From NCBI RefSeq assembly GCF_017410345.1, contig NZ_JAFQQZ010000044.1, positions 62,001 through 126,000 of the forward strand: a stretch of 64,000 bases of DNA. Reading direction: 5' to 3'. Numbering within the stretch: the first letter of the stretch is position 1; every line of letters starts with the position of its first letter. The notes below the pieces were generated by a model that was not told where the DNA came from, did not search any database, and was given only the letters and a program-made list of their open reading frames with translations. A program made the translations under genes and the position numbers. This document shows positions 33,681 to 47,698 of the stretch, in pieces. This DNA comes from Methanobrevibacter sp. (GTDB lineage: Archaea; Methanobacteriota; Methanobacteria; Methanobacteriales; Methanobacteriaceae).

Positions 33681-34025
33681 ATTTTTTAACTATTTTTTCA
33701 AATATTTTCATTTTCTATTTTTCAACTATTTTTTATAAAATTTTACTAAAATTAAAAATTTTTATCTTCTTATGTAGATACTATTATTTTAAAACATGTG
33801 ATTTAAAAAATGAATCAATTTAATAATAGTAATACATGATTAAAATATAGTTTACTTATCAAACTATCATTTTAAATGTATCTTGAATCAATTAAGTTGA
33901 ATGAAAATTTTTACTGAAAAATTCTTTTCAAATTATTGGAAATTTTAGAAAATTTTCACATATTAAATGTTAATAATTATGAAGAACATATAGATTATAG
34001 TAAAAATTTTAACAGGCAAGATCTT
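33681..34025 (+). promoter_or_regulatory. Upstream region of bioW with two inverted repeats
   Basis: No gene is seen. TACTATTATT (33779-33788) is repeated inverted as AATAATAGTA (33822-33831), and ATAGTTT (33847-33853) as AAACTAT (33861-33867). These could be operators for the biotin genes. Neither fits the BirA consensus I remember. Confidence 0.35.
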
Positions 34026-34787
34026 ATGATGTACAGCATAAAGATGCGATGCTCAAAAGGAGGCCCTCATGAAGAAGGGGGAAAGCACATCTCAGGAGCA
34101 GAACGTATTTTAAGGGAAGAAGAAATAGAAAAGGAACTGATCAATGTTTATAGAAGGGCAATCACTCACGAGCGAGGAAAGCCTGATTTCATAAACTTCA
34201 AGATTGAAGAGATTGATGAAGATGACATCATCTATAAAAAGAGATTGAACATTAACCAGCATCATGTTAATTCCAAAGAGGAAGGATTGAATCTTGCCAA
34301 AGAACTACTGAAGGAAAATGATGTAAGCGAAGAATCCACCCAAAAAGCCATTCAGACCCTGCTTGACCTTGAAGATAGCATGCATGGAGCTATGCTGATT
34401 GACAAGGACACTGGAGATAGAATAGACAATAAAGGAATTAAGGGTGTCAGAGTCACCGGAATAGCCAGTGCGGACATAACTAAATACAAAGAATCACTGA
34501 AAAATGATGGAAGGGAAGGACTTCACCTTGAAGAGGCATTGATTCTAGCATCCAAGATAGCAAGTACTAAAGGAATCGTTGCAGAGCTTTGTTGGTCAGA
34601 TGATCCAAGCTATGTGATAGGATATGTTGGAACAAAGGATACTTATGAACGGATTCCTATCCTAAAAGATGAAGGAACTCCTATAGGCGGAAGGGTTTTC
34701 TTTGTTGATACAAATCAATTGAATGATGATTACACTTTAGATGATTTGATGAATTACCTTGAAAAGCAGGTTGTGCTGATTGAATAG
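34026..34787 (+). CDS. bioW: 6-carboxyhexanoate-CoA ligase (pimeloyl-CoA synthetase)
   Basis: About 253 residues. BioW activates pimelate to pimeloyl-CoA with ATP, the entry to biotin synthesis. Signature parts are SIKMRCSKGG, GKHISGAERIL, the central GVRVTGIA and the C-terminal ELCWSDDPSYVIGYV and RIPILKDEGTPIGGRVFFV. The frame extends upstream to a TTG at 33936, but those 30 residues do not look like the family; the ATG at 34026 gives MMYSIKMR. Its ribosome binding site is weak (AGGCAAG). It overlaps or abuts bioF. Confidence 0.88.
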   Translation: MMYSIKMRCSKGGPHEEGGKHISGAERILREEEIEKELINVYRRAITHERGKPDFINFKIEEIDEDDIIYKKRLNINQHHVNSKEEGLNLAKELLKENDVSEESTQKAIQTLLDLEDSMHGAMLIDKDTGDRIDNKGIKGVRVTGIASADITKYKESLKNDGREGLHLEEALILASKIASTKGIVAELCWSDDPSYVIGYVGTKDTYERIPILKDEGTPIGGRVFFVDTNQLNDDYTLDDLMNYLEKQVVLIE

Positions 34788-34809
34788 AATCCTAATTATT
34801 GATGATAAC

Positions 34810-36024
34810 ATGAATCCAAATCTTGAAAAGCAATTGAAAAAAGAGTTGGAAGAGCTCAAAAGCAAGAATCTAAATAGAACCGTAGATGACTTAAGGTTCA
34901 TCAGTTCCACAAAAGCCATCGATAGTGATGGAAAGGAGTATCTTGTTTTTGGAACAAACAATTATCTTGGATTGACTCATCATCATGATGTGATAAAAGC
35001 ATCAAAGGATGCAAGCACATATGGAACAGGTTCAACTGGTTCAAGACTGACTACAGGAGCCTCTTTTGAAGCTAGAGAACTTGAAAAAAGCATCTCCGAG
35101 TTTAAGAACACTGAATCCGCACTTATTTTTAATACAGGATATATGACTAACTTAGGAGTCATTTATGCACTTACAAAGGAAAATGACATAATATTCTCTG
35201 ATGAATTGAATCATGCAAGCATCATTGATGGAACTAAAATCTCTAAAGCTAAAGTAAAGGTCTATAAACATAAAGATACTGATGAATTGGAAAGATTAAT
35301 TCAATCTGAATTAAAAGAAATGAATAATCAAAATTCCAATTTTTTCATTGCCAGCGATGGAGTATTCAGCATGGATGGAGACATTGCTCCACTACCGGAA
35401 CTTGTGGAAATAGCTGAGAAATACAACTGCACTCTAATAATTGATGATGCTCATGCGACTGGAGTAATCGGAAAGACCGGTAAAGGAACAGTTGAATACT
35501 TTAAAGACAAGACAGGAATCGATCTGACCGATTCTGTAGACTTGCAGATAGGCACCTTAAGCAAGGCACTTGCATCTGAAGGAGGATTCGTCTGTGGAAA
35601 GCAAGTCTACATTGATTACCTCATAAACAAATCAAGACCATTCATATTCTCAACAGCACTTTCACCTTCCACAATAGCTAGTGCAAATGTTGCATTGAAT
35701 CTATTGAAGGAAAATAGTGAAGAATACTTGAATAATCTAAATTCAAACACAAAGCTTATGAGAGAACTACTCATCAATGCAGGATTGAATATTGTTGATG
35801 GAGAAACACCAATCATTCCAATCATCATAGGCCCTGCAGATTTAGCAAACAGATTCTCAAATGAACTTAAAAAAGAGGGAATTTTGGTTTCAGCAATCAG
35901 ACCACCATCCGTACCTAAAGAGATGAGCAGACTGAGATTTACAATAATGTCAACCCATACAAAAGAAGAAATAGAATTCACTGCAAATGAGATTATTAAA
36001 ATTTGGAATAATATTAAAAAATAG
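34810..36024 (+). CDS. bioF: 8-amino-7-oxononanoate synthase
   Basis: About 404 residues; a PLP enzyme that condenses pimeloyl-CoA with alanine in biotin synthesis. Family landmarks are NNYLGLTHH, STGSRLTTG, DELNHASIIDG, IDDAHATGVIG and GTLSKALASEGGFVCG with the PLP-binding lysine. It is directly downstream of bioW, whose product it uses. The frame opens at a TTG (34780) overlapping the bioW stop, but the ATG at 34810 is preferred; the start is not certain. bioA, bioD and bioB are not in the window. Confidence 0.92.
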   Translation: MNPNLEKQLKKELEELKSKNLNRTVDDLRFISSTKAIDSDGKEYLVFGTNNYLGLTHHHDVIKASKDASTYGTGSTGSRLTTGASFEARELEKSISEFKNTESALIFNTGYMTNLGVIYALTKENDIIFSDELNHASIIDGTKISKAKVKVYKHKDTDELERLIQSELKEMNNQNSNFFIASDGVFSMDGDIAPLPELVEIAEKYNCTLIIDDAHATGVIGKTGKGTVEYFKDKTGIDLTDSVDLQIGTLSKALASEGGFVCGKQVYIDYLINKSRPFIFSTALSPSTIASANVALNLLKENSEEYLNNLNSNTKLMRELLINAGLNIVDGETPIIPIIIGPADLANRFSNELKKEGILVSAIRPPSVPKEMSRLRFTIMSTHTKEEIEFTANEIIKIWNNIKK

Positions 36025-36477: not shown

Positions 36478-36828
36478 TCATTTAGTCTTATTCTGGACCA
36501 TGATCATCTTACCCGTTTGTGGGTCCTTATACACCTTACCCATCTCGGTATAACCCTGTCCAGTCTGATTGCTTGTATCAGGAGTCTCATTCAATATTTC
36601 CCCCTCTTGAACCTCAGTCACTTCCTGATTCATTGCTTCCATAACCTGTTCCTTCTGTTCCTGAGTCAAATCATTATTAAATAAAACGCTTTGCATGTTC
36701 CAAGCAAGCACCAGGAAAACGAGCAAGCCTACAGCAATGACCAACATTGCATCCACAAGGTTGGCGGTTCCTGCCATAGGATCCTCTTCCTCACTGTCAA
36801 AACGTCCCTTTCCTCGACGACGAGCCAT
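36478..36828 (-). CDS. DUF2149 membrane protein, ExbD-like partner of the proton channel
   Basis: A 116-residue protein of the DUF2149 family known from methanogens. It has a short basic N-terminus, an acidic EEEDPMAGTANLVDAML region with an aspartate entering a single membrane helix (about 25-45), then a Glu/Gln-rich periplasmic-side tail ending in KVYKDPQTGKMIMV. The Asp before the helix and the size recall ExbD/TolR. GGTGATTGTT decides the ATG at 36828. It is downstream of an ExbB/TolQ-type gene. The function of the pair in archaea is not established. Confidence 0.8.
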   Translation of the reverse strand: MARRRGKGRFDSEEEDPMAGTANLVDAMLVIAVGLLVFLVLAWNMQSVLFNNDLTQEQKEQVMEAMNQEVTEVQEGEILNETPDTSNQTGQGYTEMGKVYKDPQTGKMIMVQNKTK

Positions 36829-36989
36829 AACAATCACCAAAATTTTTAATATAAACACATATGAATTCCAATCTATTGTAAAATTTTTTAAATATATTGT
36901 ATACAATATCTGAACTTATTTTTCAAAAACAATTTATTTAAATTAATGTTTTCAAAATTATATTGTATAATCCTCAATCACTTCAGTGA

Positions 36990-37730
36990 TTATTTCAGCC
37001 TCTCATCCCTCTTGTCGATATTGTCCAAAATCGCATCCATCAATGCATCCAGGTTGGCAAGGTATTCACCAAACCATCTTCGTCTCAACTTGGAGGCGAA
37101 GTATGCGATAGCACCTGCACCAATACCAATGACTGTTGTGTTGAATGCAATTGTAATCGCACTTGCAAGTGTGGTAACGTCACCGGTACCCAATGCCGCA
37201 AGCCCCGGACCCATAGGAATCAATGTACCCATCAATCCAAGGGTTGGACCGATTTTAGTCACGATATCTGTCTTGTTAAGATTCTGTGCGATCTTATCCT
37301 CTTCATTGTCTATCAATCTACGAGCAAGGGTTTCCCTTGACTTCTTACCAAGATGCTCACTGTCTGCAAGTTCTGACAAGATTCTCTTTTGGGACTTCTG
37401 AATATCCGCATTGTTCACAACATTCTTGATATCCTCAGCAGACTCTGCATCATAGATTGCGTAAATCATATCCTTGATTAAGCTAACAGGCACTTTCTTA
37501 CGGGAAAGGTGTTCTGATAATAGCTTTCCTAAAGTATATACGGCAAAGACTAAAAATGCTATCAAAAGTATGATTACAGGTATCTGCAATGCCTGTGTAA
37601 TGGCAGTCAGTGAACTGTCAAGTATTGGAAGTCCGGTTCCATTGGTATTTGAGAACATGGACAACAATCCGTTTGAACCTTGAAAGGCAGCCTCATCAGC
37701 ATAAATCAAAGCATTTCCAACATTAATCAT
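36990..37730 (-). CDS. MotA/TolQ/ExbB proton channel family protein
   Basis: A 246-residue membrane protein with three main helices. The C-terminal pair holds the family signature: TKIGPTLGLMGTLIPMGPGLAALGTGDVTTLASAITIAFNTTVIGIGAGAIAYF (residues about 165-220). In bacteria these channels use the ion gradient to power outer-membrane or flagellar work; archaea lack those systems, so the target here is unknown. GGTGATTTA precedes the ATG. It lies 62 bases after the end of a giant adhesin gene and before DUF2149 on the same strand. Confidence 0.88.
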   Translation of the reverse strand: MINVGNALIYADEAAFQGSNGLLSMFSNTNGTGLPILDSSLTAITQALQIPVIILLIAFLVFAVYTLGKLLSEHLSRKKVPVSLIKDMIYAIYDAESAEDIKNVVNNADIQKSQKRILSELADSEHLGKKSRETLARRLIDNEEDKIAQNLNKTDIVTKIGPTLGLMGTLIPMGPGLAALGTGDVTTLASAITIAFNTTVIGIGAGAIAYFASKLRRRWFGEYLANLDALMDAILDNIDKRDERLK

Positions 37731-37792: not shown

Positions 37793-40700
37793 CTATTTTA
37801 TTACAACTTTTCCGGTTTTTGTAACCGCCACATAAGTCTTGTCACCAGCGAATTTAACTGTAAGCTTATAGGTTTTCTTTTTGGATAATTTGACCTTTAC
37901 AGTCGCAACTCCTTTAGAATTGGTTTTTGCGGAGTATTTTTTACCATTAACTGTGAAAGTAATCTTTTTGGATTTTAAGACTTTTCCAGTCTGATCCTTT
38001 AAGGTTGCAGTCAGTTTCTTGTTTTTTGCAGCCTTCTTATAAGTCTTTTTAGGCACAGCCAATTTGGTTTTTGTCTTAGTCACCTTAACCTTTATGGACT
38101 TGGTGCTTGCTTTGTAATTGCTGTCACCTGCAAACTTAAGGCTTACAGTATAGGTCTTTACAGCAGTCAATTTCAATTTAATTGTTGCCACACCTTTGGA
38201 GTTGGTTGTACCGCTATAGGTTTTTCCATTTACGGTTGCTGTAATCTTCTTATTCTTAATTACATTTCCACTTCCATCCTTTAATGTTACCGCAATGGCT
38301 TTTGAACTTGTAGTAACTGTAAAAGTCTTGCCGGATGCGGTTAGACTTGTAGAGCCTTTAGTAATTGTAATCTTTCCAGATGCGGATGACGCAAAGTTAT
38401 AGGAATCACCTTCAAATTTAGCACTGATACTATAAGATTTAACTGCATTCAATGAAACCTTTAAGGTTGCAACACCCTTATCATTAGTTTTGGCAGTATA
38501 TGTTTTACCATTTACAGTTATTTTGATCTTGGCATTAGCAATGGCATTTCCGTATTCATCCTTGAGAGTTACAGAGATAATTTTGTTTAAGTTATCCACT
38601 TTATAGGATGAATTGGAGACAACTAAAGTGGAATTGGCTTTTCCTGTAAAGCTATTTCCTTCAATAGCATTGTTCTCACTTCCGCTATATGTCAAGATGT
38701 TATGACTGTGATTGGTAAAGATCCCAAAATTATTATTTAGGAAATTGGAGTCAATTGCTTTATATCCTAAAACAATGCCTACACCATGTAAAGGACCAAT
38801 AATTGTAACATTATTATCAGTGAAGTTGTTGTTTTTAGATCCTTCAGCTGTACTGTTCGGACTTGCTCCAATAATGCCTATGCCATAAATGATAGGGTCA
38901 TTGGAATGAAGAAGAATATCATTATTTGAAATGGTATTGTTAAATCCGCCATAATGGATAAATACCCCTGCAATGGAGTTATAGGATTCATTCAAATTAT
39001 AATTTGATGGCAAATCAGAGCTTACATCAATCTTATTGTTTGTTAAGTTAACATTAGAGGAATGGATTAATAAGACCCCATAGGTCCTGTATACTCCGGA
39101 TACCATATGGGAACCTGGTATAACCCCATCTAAAACATTACTTGAACCTGTTCCATCAAGGCAGATGACTGTTCCATTTGAATACTCTATTGTACCATTT
39201 GTGTAATAGGTTGTGCCATCAACACAGATAGAACCATCTGGATTGACGTCTCCCTCGCCATAGTTTATTATTGTGCCATCAGGACATCTAATGATGCCAT
39301 CTGCACAAACAATACTTCCATCAGCACATACAAATGCACCATCTGCACAAATTACAGTGCCATTAGTGCATAAGGTAGTTCCATCCGGACAAACAACAGA
39401 ACCATCCTGACAAACAGTAATTCCATCGGTACAGACAGAACCATCAGGACAGACAACAGTACCATCTGAAGTAAGCCTATAACCACCAGCAACAATACGA
39501 GTACCATCAGCAAGAAGAACAGTACCATCAAGACAATAGGTAACACCATCAGCACAGACAGAACCATCCGGACAAATCTCAGAATTGATAAATGTCCCAT
39601 CAGGACATCTGATAGTGCCATCAGTACAAACAATACTTCCATCAGCACAGATTCTTGCTCCATCAGCAAGGTTTACGGAACCGTCTGTACATAAGGTAGT
39701 TCCATCCGGACAAACTACAGAACCGTCCGCACAAATGGTAGTGCCATCAGTACAAACAATACTTCCATCCGGACAAACAGTTACTCCATCGGTACAGACA
39801 GAACCATCCGGACAGATTATTGTATTATTCGGAGTGATTTGATAACCGCCAGCAACAATACGAGTACCATCAGCAAGAAGAACAGTACCATCAAGACAAT
39901 AGGTAACACCATCTACACAAACTCCATCAGGACAGATTTGAGTGTTTTCAGAACTGACTACAGTACCATCGGCACAGATTAGAGACCCATCAGTGCAAAC
40001 TATTGATCCATCAACACAGATTGTAAATTGATTTGAACCGATTACATTACCATCAGGACATAGCAAAGAGCCATCGGCACAAATTGTGTATCCATCAGGA
40101 CATGTTATGGAACCATCCAAACAGGCATCCACACAAATGCTGAGATAACCATCCAAACAGCTTTTATTGTTTATGAGATAAGTATCACCGCTTCCAATTG
40201 TTTTTATAGTGTTTCCATCCATAAGAATATCTCTTGAATTGAATGAAAGTATTGCAGCAGTGAAATAGTTTCCTCTCGCCTGTAGCGTATTGTTGATAAT
40301 GCTGCAATTTGAAGCTTCTAAAAGATAGATGGCATATGCTGAAAAGGTATCATTTATTGATATATCACAATTTTTAATTGACACATTATTGACGCCATTA
40401 ACTTGAATGCCCCATAAACGGTCTTTCACATCATGATTCGGATTAAAAATCTTAATATCGGAAATTGATACATCATCAACATCTATTATGAAAGTTGTGT
40501 CAACAAAACTTGCATTAATGCCTAAAATTTTAACTTTTTCATTTATGTGTATCTTATTTTTAGATGAAAATTCACCTTTAAATATTAAATAATCATTTTC
40601 TTTTATAATATTTTCCAGATATCCAGTTGATGTGAAGTAAGTGTAGAAATTAGACTCCTCAATGAAATGTACCTCCCCATCATCTAATGCGATTGGTTCT

Positions 40701-42244
40701 GTACCTCCTATTAAAATATTAGAGATTAAAGTGATATTTTGAGATTCAGATGGAACATCAATAGATACAACACCTGAATTATATAATATGTTGTCATTTA
40801 TAATAATGTCATTCGGTATCTTGTCTCTTCCCAATTTTATTAATTTGATATTATTTTTATTATGTGAATCTATGATATTGTTTGAAACTGAAACATTACT
40901 GATATTTCCATAATAAGGATTAATGTAAATACCATAACCGGTAACATTGATATTATTGTCTGAAATATTGACATTGCCCTTTTCTATAAAAATTCCAATG
41001 CCTGTAACATTTGTTATATTGTTATTGGTAATATTAGACCCCTGACCCGCTTGAATAGCCGCTTTGGTTCCATTAAAAAATGAATTATAAATTAAATTGT
41101 CTTTAATTAAGCTATTAGGGCCAGAAATAATGGCATTATCAGCACCTTCTTCCACATCAGAATAGCTACTATATGTTCCATGGATATTATAAATCACATT
41201 TCCGATAATCTGATTGCTGGTTCCAGTAGTGGAAATTCCCCTATATGCATTGTAAACTGTATTATTTATAACATAATTGTAACTGCTCATCACTTGAATG
41301 GCATAAACAAATGAAGAAGGGAGAGGCCTAATTGAATAAACCGTATTATTCACAATGTAATTTGAATAGCTTTCCGCATCTCCCCCTGAACCCATAGAGG
41401 ATGTAGCACCATATCCTGTGAAATAAATACCATTTGAATCATTAGTTATAACCGTATTATCATAGATGTTACAAGAGCCTGCATTACGGAAAACCATCGC
41501 AGAGGGATGCCCCCAACCTTCTACATACCCAGTAGATCGAAGGGTATTATTGTAAATATTCATTCTATTAACCCTTTCGAATGTCATTGGGTGGGAACCT
41601 GTAGCTGAACTAAATAGGTCATTTTCCCTAAGAGTCATGTCATCAGCATCTGAAACAGAAATAAGAGGTTTATTAATAACCGAATTATTAATTTTCATAT
41701 TGGAAATGCTGGAACCGCTTGATCCATTTATAAAATTAAATGCACAATTAGTCAAATGGGCAGTGCTATCAGTACTGGTAACAATCAAAGGAATATTGAT
41801 AATGAATGTCTTATTGGTGAATTCCCCTGAAAAATCTAAAGTGTCTCCAGACTTTAATTTTCCGGAGATTATCTTCCCATTTGAACTGAAGTATTTGGAA
41901 TAGTCGCTTTCTCTAAATGTTATTGTAGATGCAAGAATATCCGTATCAGGACTAGCGCCAAGACTGCTTGTCACACCTACAGAATTTTCATAAGAATAAT
42001 CAATACTGCCTATACATTCACTATTGTCCTTTTCATCCTCTTCCACATTTTTAATAGCATATACAGTATTTTCATCACTTGCAACATTGGAATCATCAAT
42101 ATGATTAACAGCCATTCCATCATCTGCTAACTCAAGACTAGAATCATCCATATCATTATCCATATTAGCTGCACTGATATTTCCAATAGCTAATATCAAT
42201 AATGCCAACAATCCCAACATTGCAATAAATTTTTTAGAATTCAT
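37793..42244 (-). CDS. Giant adhesin-like protein with beta-helix, Cys-x-Asp-Gly repeats and Ig-like tail
   Basis: A 1483-residue secreted protein. A signal peptide (1-25) is followed by an acidic spacer, then right-handed parallel beta-helix (NosD/pectate-lyase-like) repeats (about 105-690) with Asn-rich turns such as SNNIID. Residues about 695-1036 are a run of CxDG(S/T)xx repeats with about 36 cysteines. More beta-helix follows (about 1045-1190). Three Ig-like repeats of about 95 residues end the protein, the last very Lys-rich (TVNGKKYSAKTNSKGVATVKV). No C-terminal membrane helix is present, so wall binding through the basic tail is likely. GGGGTG precedes the ATG. Confidence 0.85.
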   Translation of the reverse strand: MNSKKFIAMLGLLALLILAIGNISAANMDNDMDDSSLELADDGMAVNHIDDSNVASDENTVYAIKNVEEDEKDNSECIGSIDYSYENSVGVTSSLGASPDTDILASTITFRESDYSKYFSSNGKIISGKLKSGDTLDFSGEFTNKTFIINIPLIVTSTDSTAHLTNCAFNFINGSSGSSISNMKINNSVINKPLISVSDADDMTLRENDLFSSATGSHPMTFERVNRMNIYNNTLRSTGYVEGWGHPSAMVFRNAGSCNIYDNTVITNDSNGIYFTGYGATSSMGSGGDAESYSNYIVNNTVYSIRPLPSSFVYAIQVMSSYNYVINNTVYNAYRGISTTGTSNQIIGNVIYNIHGTYSSYSDVEEGADNAIISGPNSLIKDNLIYNSFFNGTKAAIQAGQGSNITNNNITNVTGIGIFIEKGNVNISDNNINVTGYGIYINPYYGNISNVSVSNNIIDSHNKNNIKLIKLGRDKIPNDIIINDNILYNSGVVSIDVPSESQNITLISNILIGGTEPIALDDGEVHFIEESNFYTYFTSTGYLENIIKENDYLIFKGEFSSKNKIHINEKVKILGINASFVDTTFIIDVDDVSISDIKIFNPNHDVKDRLWGIQVNGVNNVSIKNCDISINDTFSAYAIYLLEASNCSIINNTLQARGNYFTAAILSFNSRDILMDGNTIKTIGSGDTYLINNKSCLDGYLSICVDACLDGSITCPDGYTICADGSLLCPDGNVIGSNQFTICVDGSIVCTDGSLICADGTVVSSENTQICPDGVCVDGVTYCLDGTVLLADGTRIVAGGYQITPNNTIICPDGSVCTDGVTVCPDGSIVCTDGTTICADGSVVCPDGTTLCTDGSVNLADGARICADGSIVCTDGTIRCPDGTFINSEICPDGSVCADGVTYCLDGTVLLADGTRIVAGGYRLTSDGTVVCPDGSVCTDGITVCQDGSVVCPDGTTLCTNGTVICADGAFVCADGSIVCADGIIRCPDGTIINYGEGDVNPDGSICVDGTTYYTNGTIEYSNGTVICLDGTGSSNVLDGVIPGSHMVSGVYRTYGVLLIHSSNVNLTNNKIDVSSDLPSNYNLNESYNSIAGVFIHYGGFNNTISNNDILLHSNDPIIYGIGIIGASPNSTAEGSKNNNFTDNNVTIIGPLHGVGIVLGYKAIDSNFLNNNFGIFTNHSHNILTYSGSENNAIEGNSFTGKANSTLVVSNSSYKVDNLNKIISVTLKDEYGNAIANAKIKITVNGKTYTAKTNDKGVATLKVSLNAVKSYSISAKFEGDSYNFASSASGKITITKGSTSLTASGKTFTVTTSSKAIAVTLKDGSGNVIKNKKITATVNGKTYSGTTNSKGVATIKLKLTAVKTYTVSLKFAGDSNYKASTKSIKVKVTKTKTKLAVPKKTYKKAAKNKKLTATLKDQTGKVLKSKKITFTVNGKKYSAKTNSKGVATVKVKLSKKKTYKLTVKFAGDKTYVAVTKTGKVVIK
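39140..40162 (-). repeat. Heptad CxDG repeat region within the adhesin gene
   Basis: About 340 codons encode 7-residue units Cys-x-Asp-Gly-(Ser/Thr)-x-x (CPDGSIV, CTDGTTI, CADGSVV and similar), with some 5- or 6-residue units and some Leu-Ala-Asp-Gly or Thr-Asn-Gly variants. A 65-base stretch at 39486-39550 is repeated identically at 39849-39913, an offset of 363 bases (121 codons), so a block was duplicated recently. Confidence 0.9.
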
Positions 42245-42623: not shown

Positions 42624-45600
42624 TTATTCCTCATCATCTTCGTCCCTTGCAGCCAAGAAACTGAAACAGAAAACCAATACTAGAATCAATGCCGCAACCG
42701 GTACAAAAATTCCTCCAGATATTGATTTGCTTGCAACTTCTTCAATTTCACTTGCAACCACATCAGATCCATCTCCTGCTTCACCGGAATCTCCAGCCCC
42801 ATCGTTTGCAGAGGATTGCGCATTTGCATTGAAGTTGGAATTCACATCACCAAATGCACTTGCACCATTGGATGGGGAATTACCTGAATTGCCAGAGATG
42901 CTTGAACTGCCATTGGTATGAATCGGTCTTCTAGGATTGACATTGCCACTATCTGAACCATGCCTTAATCCGGTATTTCCAGAAATATGATTCATGCCGG
43001 TATTGTCTGAAACAGCAGCATTTCCCTTGCCTTTTGATGAGGCTAACTCATTATTCAAAATAGAGTTTCCAACAGAACCATCGATAGTGATTGCATAATC
43101 TCCGTCACTAACAATAACATTATCTGCGATCAAATTGCCATTTGAACCTTTTTCAAGGAGAATGCCAGTATTAATCAGACTAACGGAATCTGGATGCTCA
43201 GGACCTTGTGCCGGATCATTAATACCATCACCAAAGGAATGGATGGTGTTGTTTGTAATGCTATTGCCTGATGAACCATAAAGCCCCACTTCACTGAAAC
43301 TTCCATTGGCATAAATATTGTTGTGGCCAATATCATTGCTCCAAGCGGAATAAAGTTCCATAGCATAAATTCCTGCACGACCAGATAAGTTCAAGGTATT
43401 GTTTTCAACTTGGGCGCCACCTGAAATTTCCAATGTCAGACCGTAGGTATAATTATTGGAATAAAGGTTGAATTGATTTTCCTCAACAACAGTGTCAATG
43501 GAGTTGTGTCTTAAAATCATACCCATTGCAAAATAATCCGCCTCTATTGTAATATTGTTCCTTGAGAAAATATTTTCACATGCATAAGTTACGGATTTGT
43601 CAGTGTCATCCCCAGATGAACCCATTCCATAAAGGAAAGGATCGTGTCCATGGACATACACATTGTTTTCACTGACATTGTTCCTATTGGAATCATAATA
43701 AATATAAAGACCGTAAAGAAGGTTTTCAGCTGGATTATATGGAACCTGGAATCCTTCAACAGTTGAAGTTACCTCAATGTCATTGTGAATGAATTGATTG
43801 TCACTTGAGAAATCAATGATGACCCCATAAGTGTTTGCCATTTCTGAAATACTGTGAACACCATCTATGCAAATGGTCTGGTAATATGAGTATAGCTTCC
43901 CTGTTCCAATGGCAAGGATGCTGTTGTTTTCTATTAGGCTTCCATAAGTCTCATAGGTTATCAGTCCCAATACCAAGTTATCTCCTTGACATCTGATGCT
44001 ATTGTTTGCAACTGTATCATAACGGGAGTCGCAAAGGTAAATCCCATAAGAGGTATTCTTATCCCAAACTGTGATATTGTTTCCACATATGATTTCATTA
44101 TCCGCTTCATAGACATAAATTCCCCAAAGGTTGCAATTGCTGTCAGTTGAACCATTGTTTATGATAGTCAAGTTCTGAACTTCACAATTTGATGAATAAA
44201 CAACAATGGTGGTGTCCTTAAGCACCGCACTGTCACCAATGATTTTCACTGCCTTATTTAAGATGATTTTGCCTTTTGGAGCAAAGTTTCCAAAGAGAAT
44301 CAGTGTGTCTCCATTCTGGACATTATCTCTTAAATAACCATTGGAATCAAAATACTCATCATAATTCTCATTGGTCACTTCATAATAATTGCCATCTCCG
44401 GAATGAGGGATATCACCACTTGGAATCGGATAAATAATCACTCTATCACCAATTATGTTATCTATGCATAAATAGGATTCATTTGAAGACTGGGCAATGT
44501 TTATTGCCACTTCATTGGAAGTATAGATTGTATTATTGCATGTAGAGATATTGTAAGGTCTTTTGGTTCTTGATTGGTAAATGGATAAGATGCCAATTCC
44601 TAAACCGGAACCTTGTGAAGCCCCTATTTCAGATAAGGAGTTTATAATGTTCTTGTAAACTTCACTATCTTGAGGGCTGCCTTTTAAAACAATGCCTGCA
44701 CCTGATAGGAAATCTATAGTGTTATTATAAACTTTTGAATTATGACCTCCTTCCACGTCACCAAGGATAATTCCGTTTCCACTGCTGTTTATTTGAATAT
44801 AGTTTCCATAGACATCACTGTTTGAACCTACAAGAATGCCTGCACCAATCAAATCTGCATTGTAAATGGAGTTATTGGCAATTAAAGTGTCATTACCTCC
44901 CCAAATACCATAATCTCCACCAATACCATTATTATCATCAAATCCGGTTATGTTATAGATTTTATTGCCAACTATATAATTATGAGGATAACTTGAATGG
45001 ATTCCCCTATACATGCGGATTATAGTGTTGTCAGCTACTGTGTTATAATTTCCAGTTAGGTAAACACCATAAGACCAGAATGAAGGAGTTTCTGAAGTGG
45101 CTCTAATAGTATTGTTTGCTATGATATTGTTATTGGAAATGGAAACGCCATAACAAAGGTATACTCCATAGGAATTTTCAACTGTGATGTCATTATGAAC
45201 AATTGAATTCCCATGTGCATCCCTTAAGCTGATACCTGAATGTTGCCAACTGCTGTTGTCTCCACTGTTTTCCTCATCCTGATCGGTCTCGGAGGAACTT
45301 GCACCGGTATTGACCGGAACGACCGTTTTAATAATGTTGTTTTCAACAAGACAATTGTAGGTAAACCCATCAAGGGAAATAGGATAGCCGTTATGCCCTG
45401 TAGTGAATATGTCATTGTTTAAAACCTTTATGCAAGTTGATCCGACTACCCAAACTGCAGATATGTCAGGAATATTTGATTCAATTTTCAAGTTGGAAAC
45501 AATTGCATCATAAGCAAAATTCTCATTGGATACATTATAGTAATATATTGGAGAATTCTTCAATATCGCATCGTTTTCTGTACTTGTAATTGTTAAAGGA

Positions 45601-46064
45601 ATATTTATTACAAATTTCTTATTAGAAAAATTACCAGACAAATTAATAGTGTCATTGGCCTTTACCAATGAATTTATCAAATTACCATTGGAATCAAAAT
45701 AACTAGAATAATTCTCTTCGGTAATTGTGTGAACTGTCTTTTCACCGGCACCGAGATTAGATTGAGACTCTTCACCAGAGATTTCTTCAATAGGATCATT
45801 TGAGTTGGATATGATGTTATCATCAATTGAATCATCCAAATCAGATAGTCTATTATCCACAATAGAATTGGATTCAAGATTATCTGATGATTCCAAAGCT
45901 TCATTAACGCTATCAACAGCATTTGAAACTGGACTGGATTCCAAACTTTCTGATAAATTGTTAATCAAATCATCTGAACTTGATGCGCTAACAGTGTTCA
46001 ATCCTAAAAGAAGAAAAATCAAAATAACGATTAAGCTTAATCCGATTATTCTTTTACTTCTCAT
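42624..46064 (-). CDS. Giant adhesin-like beta-helix protein with C-terminal membrane anchor
   Basis: A 1146-residue surface protein. After a signal peptide (1-28) and an acidic Ser/Asp region come two beta-helix modules, each opening with a cap sequence (NYSSYFDSNGNL and NYDEYFDSNGYL). A Gly/Ser/Asn-rich linker (about 1030-1110) leads to a membrane helix (FVPVAALILVLVFCFSFLA) and an acidic DEDDEE tail. Unlike the other three adhesins here it has no Ig-like tail and is membrane-anchored. It contains one CIDG motif (YYQTICIDGV) where the neighbouring adhesin has its long repeat. GGAGGTG sets the ATG at 46064. Confidence 0.85.
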   Translation of the reverse strand: MRSKRIIGLSLIVILIFLLLGLNTVSASSSDDLINNLSESLESSPVSNAVDSVNEALESSDNLESNSIVDNRLSDLDDSIDDNIISNSNDPIEEISGEESQSNLGAGEKTVHTITEENYSSYFDSNGNLINSLVKANDTINLSGNFSNKKFVINIPLTITSTENDAILKNSPIYYYNVSNENFAYDAIVSNLKIESNIPDISAVWVVGSTCIKVLNNDIFTTGHNGYPISLDGFTYNCLVENNIIKTVVPVNTGASSSETDQDEENSGDNSSWQHSGISLRDAHGNSIVHNDITVENSYGVYLCYGVSISNNNIIANNTIRATSETPSFWSYGVYLTGNYNTVADNTIIRMYRGIHSSYPHNYIVGNKIYNITGFDDNNGIGGDYGIWGGNDTLIANNSIYNADLIGAGILVGSNSDVYGNYIQINSSGNGIILGDVEGGHNSKVYNNTIDFLSGAGIVLKGSPQDSEVYKNIINSLSEIGASQGSGLGIGILSIYQSRTKRPYNISTCNNTIYTSNEVAINIAQSSNESYLCIDNIIGDRVIIYPIPSGDIPHSGDGNYYEVTNENYDEYFDSNGYLRDNVQNGDTLILFGNFAPKGKIILNKAVKIIGDSAVLKDTTIVVYSSNCEVQNLTIINNGSTDSNCNLWGIYVYEADNEIICGNNITVWDKNTSYGIYLCDSRYDTVANNSIRCQGDNLVLGLITYETYGSLIENNSILAIGTGKLYSYYQTICIDGVHSISEMANTYGVIIDFSSDNQFIHNDIEVTSTVEGFQVPYNPAENLLYGLYIYYDSNRNNVSENNVYVHGHDPFLYGMGSSGDDTDKSVTYACENIFSRNNITIEADYFAMGMILRHNSIDTVVEENQFNLYSNNYTYGLTLEISGGAQVENNTLNLSGRAGIYAMELYSAWSNDIGHNNIYANGSFSEVGLYGSSGNSITNNTIHSFGDGINDPAQGPEHPDSVSLINTGILLEKGSNGNLIADNVIVSDGDYAITIDGSVGNSILNNELASSKGKGNAAVSDNTGMNHISGNTGLRHGSDSGNVNPRRPIHTNGSSSISGNSGNSPSNGASAFGDVNSNFNANAQSSANDGAGDSGEAGDGSDVVASEIEEVASKSISGGIFVPVAALILVLVFCFSFLAARDEDDEE

Positions 46065-46407
46065 CAAACACCTCCAGTAATTTTCTTAATTTCAACAACT
46101 AATTTCCATAAACTAAAACCTGAAAATTCAAGAATTTGCTTTATTAAATCTTAAGTCAATTAAAGAAATCTTAAAGTAAGTTAAAGTTTATTTTTTTAAA
46201 ATATTTTATAATTAAAGTTTCTTTATAAAATATAAAATATAATTGATACATTATTAATTTATAATTCTTAATATTAATAAATATTTCTTATTTAATAATG
46301 ATAATGTAAAAAAATAAGAGAAAAAATAAGCCAAATCCCCATTTAAAAAAAGGAAAAGTGAAAAAATAGCAAAATATAACATTGTTATATGACTGTTCCA
46401 TAAAAAA
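46065..46407. other. AT-rich spacer upstream of the anchored adhesin
   Basis: 343 bases without a gene between the adhesin start and the initiator tRNA (both leftward). It is very AT-rich, with several TATA-like stretches (for example near 46215 and 46245) that could serve the adhesin. Nothing else is seen. Confidence 0.5.
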
Positions 46408-46709: not shown

Positions 46710-47228
46710 TTATTCTTTTTCAGCTTCCACTACAGCTTCTTCAGCCTCTTCCAAATCCTTTTCAGCCTCTTCTAAAGCTTTGAGACGTTTGTCAAGATCT
46801 TCGATTTTGGCATCAGTTGCATTGGTGAATTCGCTGAATCTTTTCTCTAATGCTTCAATGCTTTCAAAAGCATTATCATATCTTTCTTCTAAAGAGGATA
46901 AATCATCAGTAGTCACCAAGGACCAGTTTTCAATCAGTTCCTCACTTCTTTCATCCAAGAAGGAATCCAATCTTCTTGAAAATGCATCTGTAGTGTTGGC
47001 ATAGGACTTGTCAATATCCTTAAAGGTGTACTTTATCTTGTCACCCATGGATTTCTTTTCCTGAATATCCTCATCGACAAGAGAATTAATATTGTTTTCC
47101 TTAGGTGAAAACTTAAGTATTTCCTTAATATCAATATTGCCGTCATTTGCTGTTTTAATGTAATAATACACTAAAAACACTATAGCAGCGACTAAGATAA
47201 TGATGGCAATCAATTCAATAATATCCAT
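46710..47228 (-). CDS. Membrane-anchored coiled-coil protein, 172 residues, unknown
   Basis: One N-terminal membrane helix (about 4-24) is followed by a mostly helical, charged cytoplasmic or surface region. The last 60 residues form a clear coiled coil (DAKIEDLDKRLKALEEAEKDLEEAEEAVVEAEKE). GAGGTC precedes the ATG. It is 71 bases after a similar small gene on the same strand, so the two probably form a unit. I do not recognise a family; a scaffold or spacer role near the envelope is only a guess. Confidence 0.75.
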   Translation of the reverse strand: MDIIELIAIIILVAAIVFLVYYYIKTANDGNIDIKEILKFSPKENNINSLVDEDIQEKKSMGDKIKYTFKDIDKSYANTTDAFSRRLDSFLDERSEELIENWSLVTTDDLSSLEERYDNAFESIEALEKRFSEFTNATDAKIEDLDKRLKALEEAEKDLEEAEEAVVEAEKE

Positions 47229-47299: not shown

Positions 47300-47698
47300 T
47301 TATTTATTAAGCTTTTTCTCTTTCTCTTCAATTTCCTTGAGCATTTTTTCTAACTTTTTAAGTTCGGTTTGAGCTTCAAGACGAGCTAAACGTTCATTGA
47401 TTTCACTATGCAAGTATCCTACATTGCTCATGACTTCAGCAGTGGAATCCCTGATTTGAGTGAGTTGCGCTTGTTGCTCTTCAGGCAATTGAATCGGATT
47501 TTCCATAATGCGCTTGTTCTCTAAATCCTTTTCAACCATAGCTATTTTCTTAAGCTCAATTTCCTTTTCCATTAACTTTAAAGTGTTGTTAGATTGACTT
47601 ACCTTTTTCCATTGGCTTACTACAATAATTACAACAATAGCCAATATAACTACTAAAATAAGCATAAAGATTTGATCCGGAATGATTTCAGCAGCCAT
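47300..47698 (-). CDS. Membrane-anchored coiled-coil protein, 132 residues, unknown
   Basis: An N-terminal membrane helix (about 10-28, IFMLILVVILAIVVIIVV) is followed by about 100 residues of continuous helix with heptads, ending in LKKLEKMLKEIEEKEKKLNK. A strong GGAGGTAAATCT site precedes the ATG. It is the first gene of a pair with the 172-residue protein, and both are placed between adhesin genes. No family is recognised. Confidence 0.78.
   Translation of the reverse strand: MAAEIIPDQIFMLILVVILAIVVIIVVSQWKKVSQSNNTLKLMEKEIELKKIAMVEKDLENKRIMENPIQLPEEQQAQLTQIRDSTAEVMSNVGYLHSEINERLARLEAQTELKKLEKMLKEIEEKEKKLNK

Follow-up and report, generated by a model that had tools for sequence, protein, structure and literature searches.

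The window analysed here is a 64,000-nucleotide stretch of a Methanobrevibacter sp. contig (NZ_JAFQQZ010000044.1), and all positions are counted from its first letter. On its minus strand, the gene of a cysteine-rich protein, hereafter the array protein, is preceded by a paralog and followed by genes for an ExbB-type channel and a DUF2149 protein. The features of this cluster are the following.

36478..36906, minus strand: DUF2149 membrane protein (open reading frame, start codon uncertain; Pfam DUF2149, E=1.2e-23)
36990..37730, minus strand: MotA/TolQ/ExbB proton channel protein, 62 bases downstream of the array gene (Pfam MotA_ExbB, E=1.4e-12)
37793..42244, minus strand: gene of the array protein, 1483 aa, with signal peptide, beta-helix, CxDG array, beta-helix and three Ig-like repeats (open reading frame and Pfam)
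37796..38632, minus strand: C-terminal Ig-like repeats (Pfam Big_1, Big_3_5)
38645..39097, minus strand: second beta-helix part, about residues 1050-1200, from the conserved H-M-V-S-G-V-Y-R-T-Y-G onward (AF2 pLDDT mostly 81-95, 60 at one loop; conserved in orthologs)
39137..40162, minus strand: CxDG array, residues 695-1036, with 36 Cys and 35 C-x-[DN]-G units (sequence, pattern and shuffle statistics)
39215..39574, minus strand: internal duplication, second copy, residues 891-1010 (71% DNA identity to the first copy)
39575..39934, minus strand: internal duplication, first copy, residues 771-890 (71% DNA identity to the second copy)
39587..39796, minus strand: ten uninterrupted heptads, residues 817-886, the input of the confident array model (AF2 and Foldseek)
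40175..41947, minus strand: first beta-helix part, about residues 100-690 (Pfam Beta_helix; residues 610-680 at AF2 pLDDT 84-98)
42170..42244, minus strand: signal-peptide-like N-terminus, residues 1-25, MNSKKFIAMLGLLALLILAIGNISA (by eye from the sequence)
42624..46067, minus strand: paralog next door, 1147 aa, beta-helix and C-terminal membrane helix (BLASTP 29% over 663 aa, E=2e-52)
43860..43871, minus strand: the paralog's lone CIDG, at the position homologous to the array (BLASTP alignment)

With a signal-like start recognised by eye, a right-handed beta-helix and Ig-like repeats at its C-terminus, the array protein resembles the adhesin-like proteins (ALPs) of gut Methanobacteriaceae (PMC11532034), and AF2 models both flanks of the array as beta-helix, with pLDDT mostly above 80. 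Unlike ALPs as described, it carries a Cys-rich insertion inside the beta-helix, and the text of that source, searched for it, describes no such insert (PMC11532034). We class the array protein as an ALP whose insert is unusual.

Cysteine heptads filling about 340 residues between two beta-helix parts, with some 36 cysteines, had been pointed out in a sequence-only reading of this DNA, and translation, shuffling and cysteine content all confirm them. Residues 695-1036 contain 36 of the 41 cysteines of the protein, and 34 of the 35 C-x-[DN]-G units read C-x-D-G, spaced from unit to unit mostly by 7 residues and otherwise mainly by 14, 21 or 28. Cysteine pairs at lag 7 number 21 in the array, whereas 20,000 shuffles average 3.6 and never exceed 12; the cysteine content is 10.5%, compared with 1.17% for the window's other long ORFs (P = 6e-23); and a DNA pattern of three consecutive heptads gives 11 matches in the window and none in 100 shuffles. 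The heptads had also been said to repeat with little interruption, which mostly holds for the register but not for the motif: short non-CxDG stretches, in which the 7-residue register is mostly kept, break the array every ~30-60 residues, and the array includes an internal duplication of ~120 residues.

The codons of these units bear on the age of the array. In the Gly codon of the window units, the third base is free (diversity 0.66) while bases 1 and 2 are fixed (0.00), and comparison of the units gives medians of ~0.46 for dN and ~0.99 for dS. The window array is therefore old and under purifying selection that has kept C, D and G, and is not the outcome of recent slippage. Of 223 units taken from 21 orthologs, 207 have Cys at position 1, 212 have Asp at position 3 and all 223 have Gly at position 4; the search pattern itself partly fixes the figures for Gly and Asp/Asn. 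Some ortholog arrays of other species (e.g. G052 and G093) consist of near-identical DNA repeats and are thus recent.

The earlier reading had proposed a profile search with the CxDG heptad in archaeal proteomes; in the genomes searched here, the exact heptad pattern is confined to two genera. Of the 151 genomes of the order, 21 contain it, each at a single place, and the reversed pattern used as a control gave a single match in total. Elsewhere in the phylum it was not found (21 of 152 genomes positive, all from the same two genera), nor did it occur in any of 396 Bacteroidota genomes. Four loci in viral contigs were matched: L166 reads as an unrelated Cys-rich protein, and in the other three no ORF of at least 60 aa was found to contain an in-frame CxDG triplet. 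A profile of the region is more inclusive, finding relatives in 89 of the 130 genomes of the family.

Among the relatives read in detail, variation is confined to one loop, which follows the '...TIxTxGTGxxY...' strand and precedes 'HVVxExYRTYGIL'. The 55 Methanobacteriaceae orthologs carry 0-36 Cys at exactly this loop, and their repeat period is 4, 5, 6, 7 or 14 residues according to lineage. The loop may be devoid of Cys (G024), hold one CxDG (G028, G031, G040, G045), or be filled with tetrads (CLDG x11 in G003), pentads (CLDGN), hexads, heptads or a 14-mer (CIDGNELVIDGKSY), the 14-residue repeat occurring in 13 orthologs; CPEG and CTSG variants are also seen. The neighbouring paralog is collinear with both array flanks and has its single CIDG at the corresponding place. 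In a tree built from the flanks, period 7 requires 6 changes, at least 5 of them on well-supported branches, and period 4 requires 3, at least 2 of them on such branches; periods 14 and 5 each fall on one side of a branch. Since one and the same loop shows differing periods and anything from no cysteine to 36, and the paralog carries just one CxDG at this spot, repeated and independent enlargement of a single ancestral CxDG loop is the probable origin of the Cys-rich arrays. Judged from these sequences, the conserved element is the Cys-Asp-Gly unit, not the heptad. As to the rigid segment suggested earlier, the orthologs differ in period over a range of 4-14 residues, so that the geometry of the heptad is not the conserved feature. 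In the orthologs of L271, L273, L274 and L277, the same loop holds CIGQ/CIGx-type tetrads, in which Cys and mostly Gly are kept and Asp is lost, followed by one CLDG.

Such changeability raises the question of whether the repeats do anything at all. Under neutral or antigenic variation, CxDG repeats would come and go in a surface loop tolerant of tandem duplication, themselves serving little function, as the recent, near-identical arrays of G052 and G093, the wide range of Cys numbers and the high variability of ALPs in general (PMC11532034) would lead one to expect. This explanation appears rather unlikely, for the old arrays have kept C, D and G while their codons diverged, and expansion, repeated independently, has kept the Cys; variation in number is also compatible with function.

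The fold adopted by the units can be approached through structure prediction. For the ten uninterrupted heptads, AF2 produces a confident model (mean pLDDT 88.5, pTM 0.64) from 31 register-aligned alignment rows that overlap one another, whereas the array within its full context reaches a pLDDT of only ~45-71. The compact beta-structure anticipated by the first reading is thus backed by the model of the array alone, as a predicted DG-turn meander, but not by the in-context confidence. The best solved structure matched by Foldseek is the CPAP TCP10 domain (prob 1.00, TM 0.57, 3.6 Å), and MORN and OspA are also among the matches, consistent with an open antiparallel sheet; a Foldseek search with a 528-residue model was uninformative (TM on query at most 0.11). 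The TCP10 domain forms a single-layer antiparallel sheet that stands free, often with PDG at its turns (PMC3776556), and many units of the window read CPDG. The modelling predicts that the array is a DG-turn beta-meander resembling this sheet, although TCP10 (the G-box of CPAP/SAS-4) belongs to a eukaryotic centriole protein and no regular Cys are known in it. Pfam Tcp10_C (PF07202) stays below its cut-off for the array, at 19.8 bits with 36 required. MORN repeats share hairpins with Gly turns and structural similarity with the array, and the Pfam MORN model matches only one array segment (E=0.0034); they differ in their 14-residue YxGxWxxGxxHGxG pattern and lack of Cys. The tetrad and pentad orthologs cannot form the same sheet as the heptads.

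A different geometry, a two-sided beta-roll of 14-residue coils with two heptads per turn, would make the array a pure scaffold akin to the grass antifreeze protein or the YadA head. Both have 7- or 14-residue Gly-containing repeats, and weak profile matches link them to the array: Pfam LbR_Ice_bind (PF21300) is hit at E<=0.01 by 24 of the 31 array segments (best 1.1e-5; the family is not listed for the whole array), further weak matches concern the BpaC head and 3ult, and 13 orthologs have a 14-residue period. Nevertheless, we hold the beta-roll to be improbable: Foldseek ranks open antiparallel sheets (TCP10, MORN, OspA) first, no grass antifreeze or YadA-type fold is in the top 50 structure matches, and DG/NG pairs suit hairpin turns. 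The grass antifreeze and YadA-type repeats themselves have no Cys pattern and place their Gly outside DG pairs.

The array had also been thought to match no described domain, and here one family needs to be considered. Pfam DUF6799 (PF20606) exceeds its cut-off of 26.8 bits for the array (85.8, a score summed over many repeats) and for the whole protein (59.1); unlike hmmscan, a six-frame search of the protein's own genome reported no DUF6799. This Bacteroidota family resembles the array in DG/NG pairs spaced by 7 residues, but the true members found here are secreted proteins of ~110-220 aa, with one or two copies, 0-2 Cys and no Cys pattern. On these comparisons, the match is treated as repeat-driven; the family partly covers the repeats without having their cysteines, and the earlier claim does not quite hold. 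That the array is neither an RTX nonapeptide nor a known zinc ribbon agrees with the family searches: the RTX motif (GGxGxDxUx, period 9) is absent from the period-7 array and no RTX family appeared in the Pfam scan, and zinc ribbons received no support. A PDB sequence search with the array returned chance-like matches only, and PHROGs and NCBIfam searches weak ones only.

What the cysteines do depends largely on their state. Of the 55 orthologs, 29 have an odd and 26 an even number of array Cys, and versions with a lone Cys are common. VKOR was absent from 15 of 15 genomes, with positive controls. The host group consists of strict anaerobes. Given this balance of odd and even counts, the lone cysteines, the missing VKOR and the anaerobic habitat, free thiols would be more likely than a disulfide ladder, as far as VKOR as the oxidase goes. 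The ladder had been one of the two possibilities initially raised, and would turn the array into a disulfide-stabilised beta-structure acting as a rigid stalk, with part of the adhesin thrust outward by it. Regular spacing, a register at multiples of 7 and the confident, regular beta model of ten heptads are in keeping with it, yet it is unlikely: besides the indifferent parity, the lone-Cys orthologs and the lack of VKOR in 15 genomes, no single ladder geometry can accommodate the tetrad and pentad versions, and neighbouring Cys in a 7-residue antiparallel meander would, on a geometric estimate, be ~8 Å apart, too far to bond directly. A metal or free-thiol role would be compatible with the data and is the one favoured here.

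The gene neighbourhood suggests what such thiols may serve. In the host's own genus, the order is paralog (with membrane helix), array protein, ExbB and DUF2149, and the ExbB and DUF2149 pair follows the array gene in 9 of 9 contexts that include that side. Outside the genus, a CobN-type protein of ~1600 aa (Pfam CobN, E=6.7e-170) is encoded directly upstream of the ortholog in all 13 complete contexts of a first set and in 15 of 18 of a second, where 2 further contexts have a single gene in between; within the host's genus, CobN is located elsewhere. The adjacency is independent of array length and holds for orthologs with 0 or 1 CxDG, so that the array is not needed for the CobN linkage and may be a tunable add-on. 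With its signal-like start and C-terminal helix, the archaeal CobN may act outside the cell. No outer membrane is expected in the host's archaeal group. DUF2149 has 1-5 copies per genome, and ExbB/DUF2149 pairs are found several times per genome, also beside other surface proteins, so that they may constitute a general module.

Several other genes of these loci are worth recording. The present genome has four ExbB/DUF2149 pairs (G000 C14, C1 and C3, and window 36478-37730), several of them adjacent to beta-helix proteins that end in a membrane helix, and perhaps such pairs are a general energised surface module. In most loci of the other genera, a DUF1002 gene divergently adjoins CobN (e.g. 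L175:1689-2537). Two small genes without Pfam match (window 46710-47228 and 47300-47698) are kept beside the array cluster in both genera, and on the plus strand (window 33936-36024) BioW stands beside a BioF/KBL-like aminotransferase, these biotin precursor genes adjoining the surface-protein cluster.

Taken with the state of the cysteines, these neighbours lead us to propose, tentatively and as a possibility somewhat short of even, that the array presents free thiols, which would capture a metal or metal-tetrapyrrole for the chelatase/ExbB system. The thiols would be shown on the surface partner of this archaeal system. Within each unit, a short beta-strand probably leads into an Asp-Gly turn, as modelled, and the units together would build an open sheet or ribbon of antiparallel strands that loops out from one turn of the beta-helix. 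Kept reduced by the strictly anaerobic habitat, the Cys could bind soft metal ions or a metal-tetrapyrrole, such as heme, a corrinoid or an F430-like compound, and exchange of the catch with the adjacent CobN-like chelatase might run in either direction. By analogy with the action of HmuSTUV on heme in Bacteroidota, the energy would come from the ExbB/DUF2149 pair.

The same exposed cysteines could instead serve in adhesion, forming bonds by thiol-disulfide exchange with mucin or with Cys-rich surfaces of partner microbes or the host. An adhesin-like architecture with many unpaired surface Cys would suit this purpose, and gut-methanogen ALPs are believed to act in contact with other cells (PMC12134236); this reading leaves the constant presence of CobN or ExbB/DUF2149 as neighbours unexplained, and no disulfide-making enzyme was found (VKOR searched), which makes adhesion through thiols quite improbable. 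If, on the other hand, metal or tetrapyrrole capture is true, it would be a route for gut methanogens to obtain Co, Ni or Fe. A Cys-rich surface partner beside archaeal CobN/HmuS homologs, for which no role is known (PMC12583661), also offers one testable protein for two questions, the role of CobN and the ligands of ALPs. Moreover, the loop is a natural series in which a Cys motif has grown from one copy to dozens with varied periods, and suits the study of how repeat domains originate.

A close known counterpart of this system is the heme uptake system hmuYRSTUV of Bacteroidota, in which hmuSTUV encode CobN, a hypothetical protein, MotA/TolQ/ExbB and DUF2149 (PMC10434189). HmuS is a heme de-chelatase, the role of its archaeal homologs is unclear, and Archaea are said to be without complete hmu operons (PMC12583661). 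Elsewhere in these methanogen genomes, we found operons with the order CobN-DUF2162-ExbB-DUF2149 (L225:3345-10321, L226:2644-9527 and L227:8697-15487); the families of the L225 cluster were confirmed, and genome G060 carries an operon of this order. The archaeal neighbourhood is thus similar to hmu in its CobN-type chelatase, ExbB-type channel and DUF2149, and in the related operon also in their sequence, DUF2162 taking the position of HmuT by gene order. A bolder version of our proposal, which we consider unlikely as a whole, would be that gut methanogens have a cell-surface version of hmuSTUV, in which an expandable polythiol CxDG-sheet beta-helix protein replaces hemophore and receptor and captures metal or tetrapyrrole for an extracellular CobN, with the length of the array tuned to metal demand. 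There are also differences from the bacterial operon. The parts are spread over several loci in the host's own genus, so that the CobN, ExbB and DUF2149 set of hmu is found for the system as a whole, with only ExbB and DUF2149 adjacent at the window locus, and in this archaeal system a beta-helix protein with a Cys array or a single CxDG stands in the place of HmuY/HmuR.
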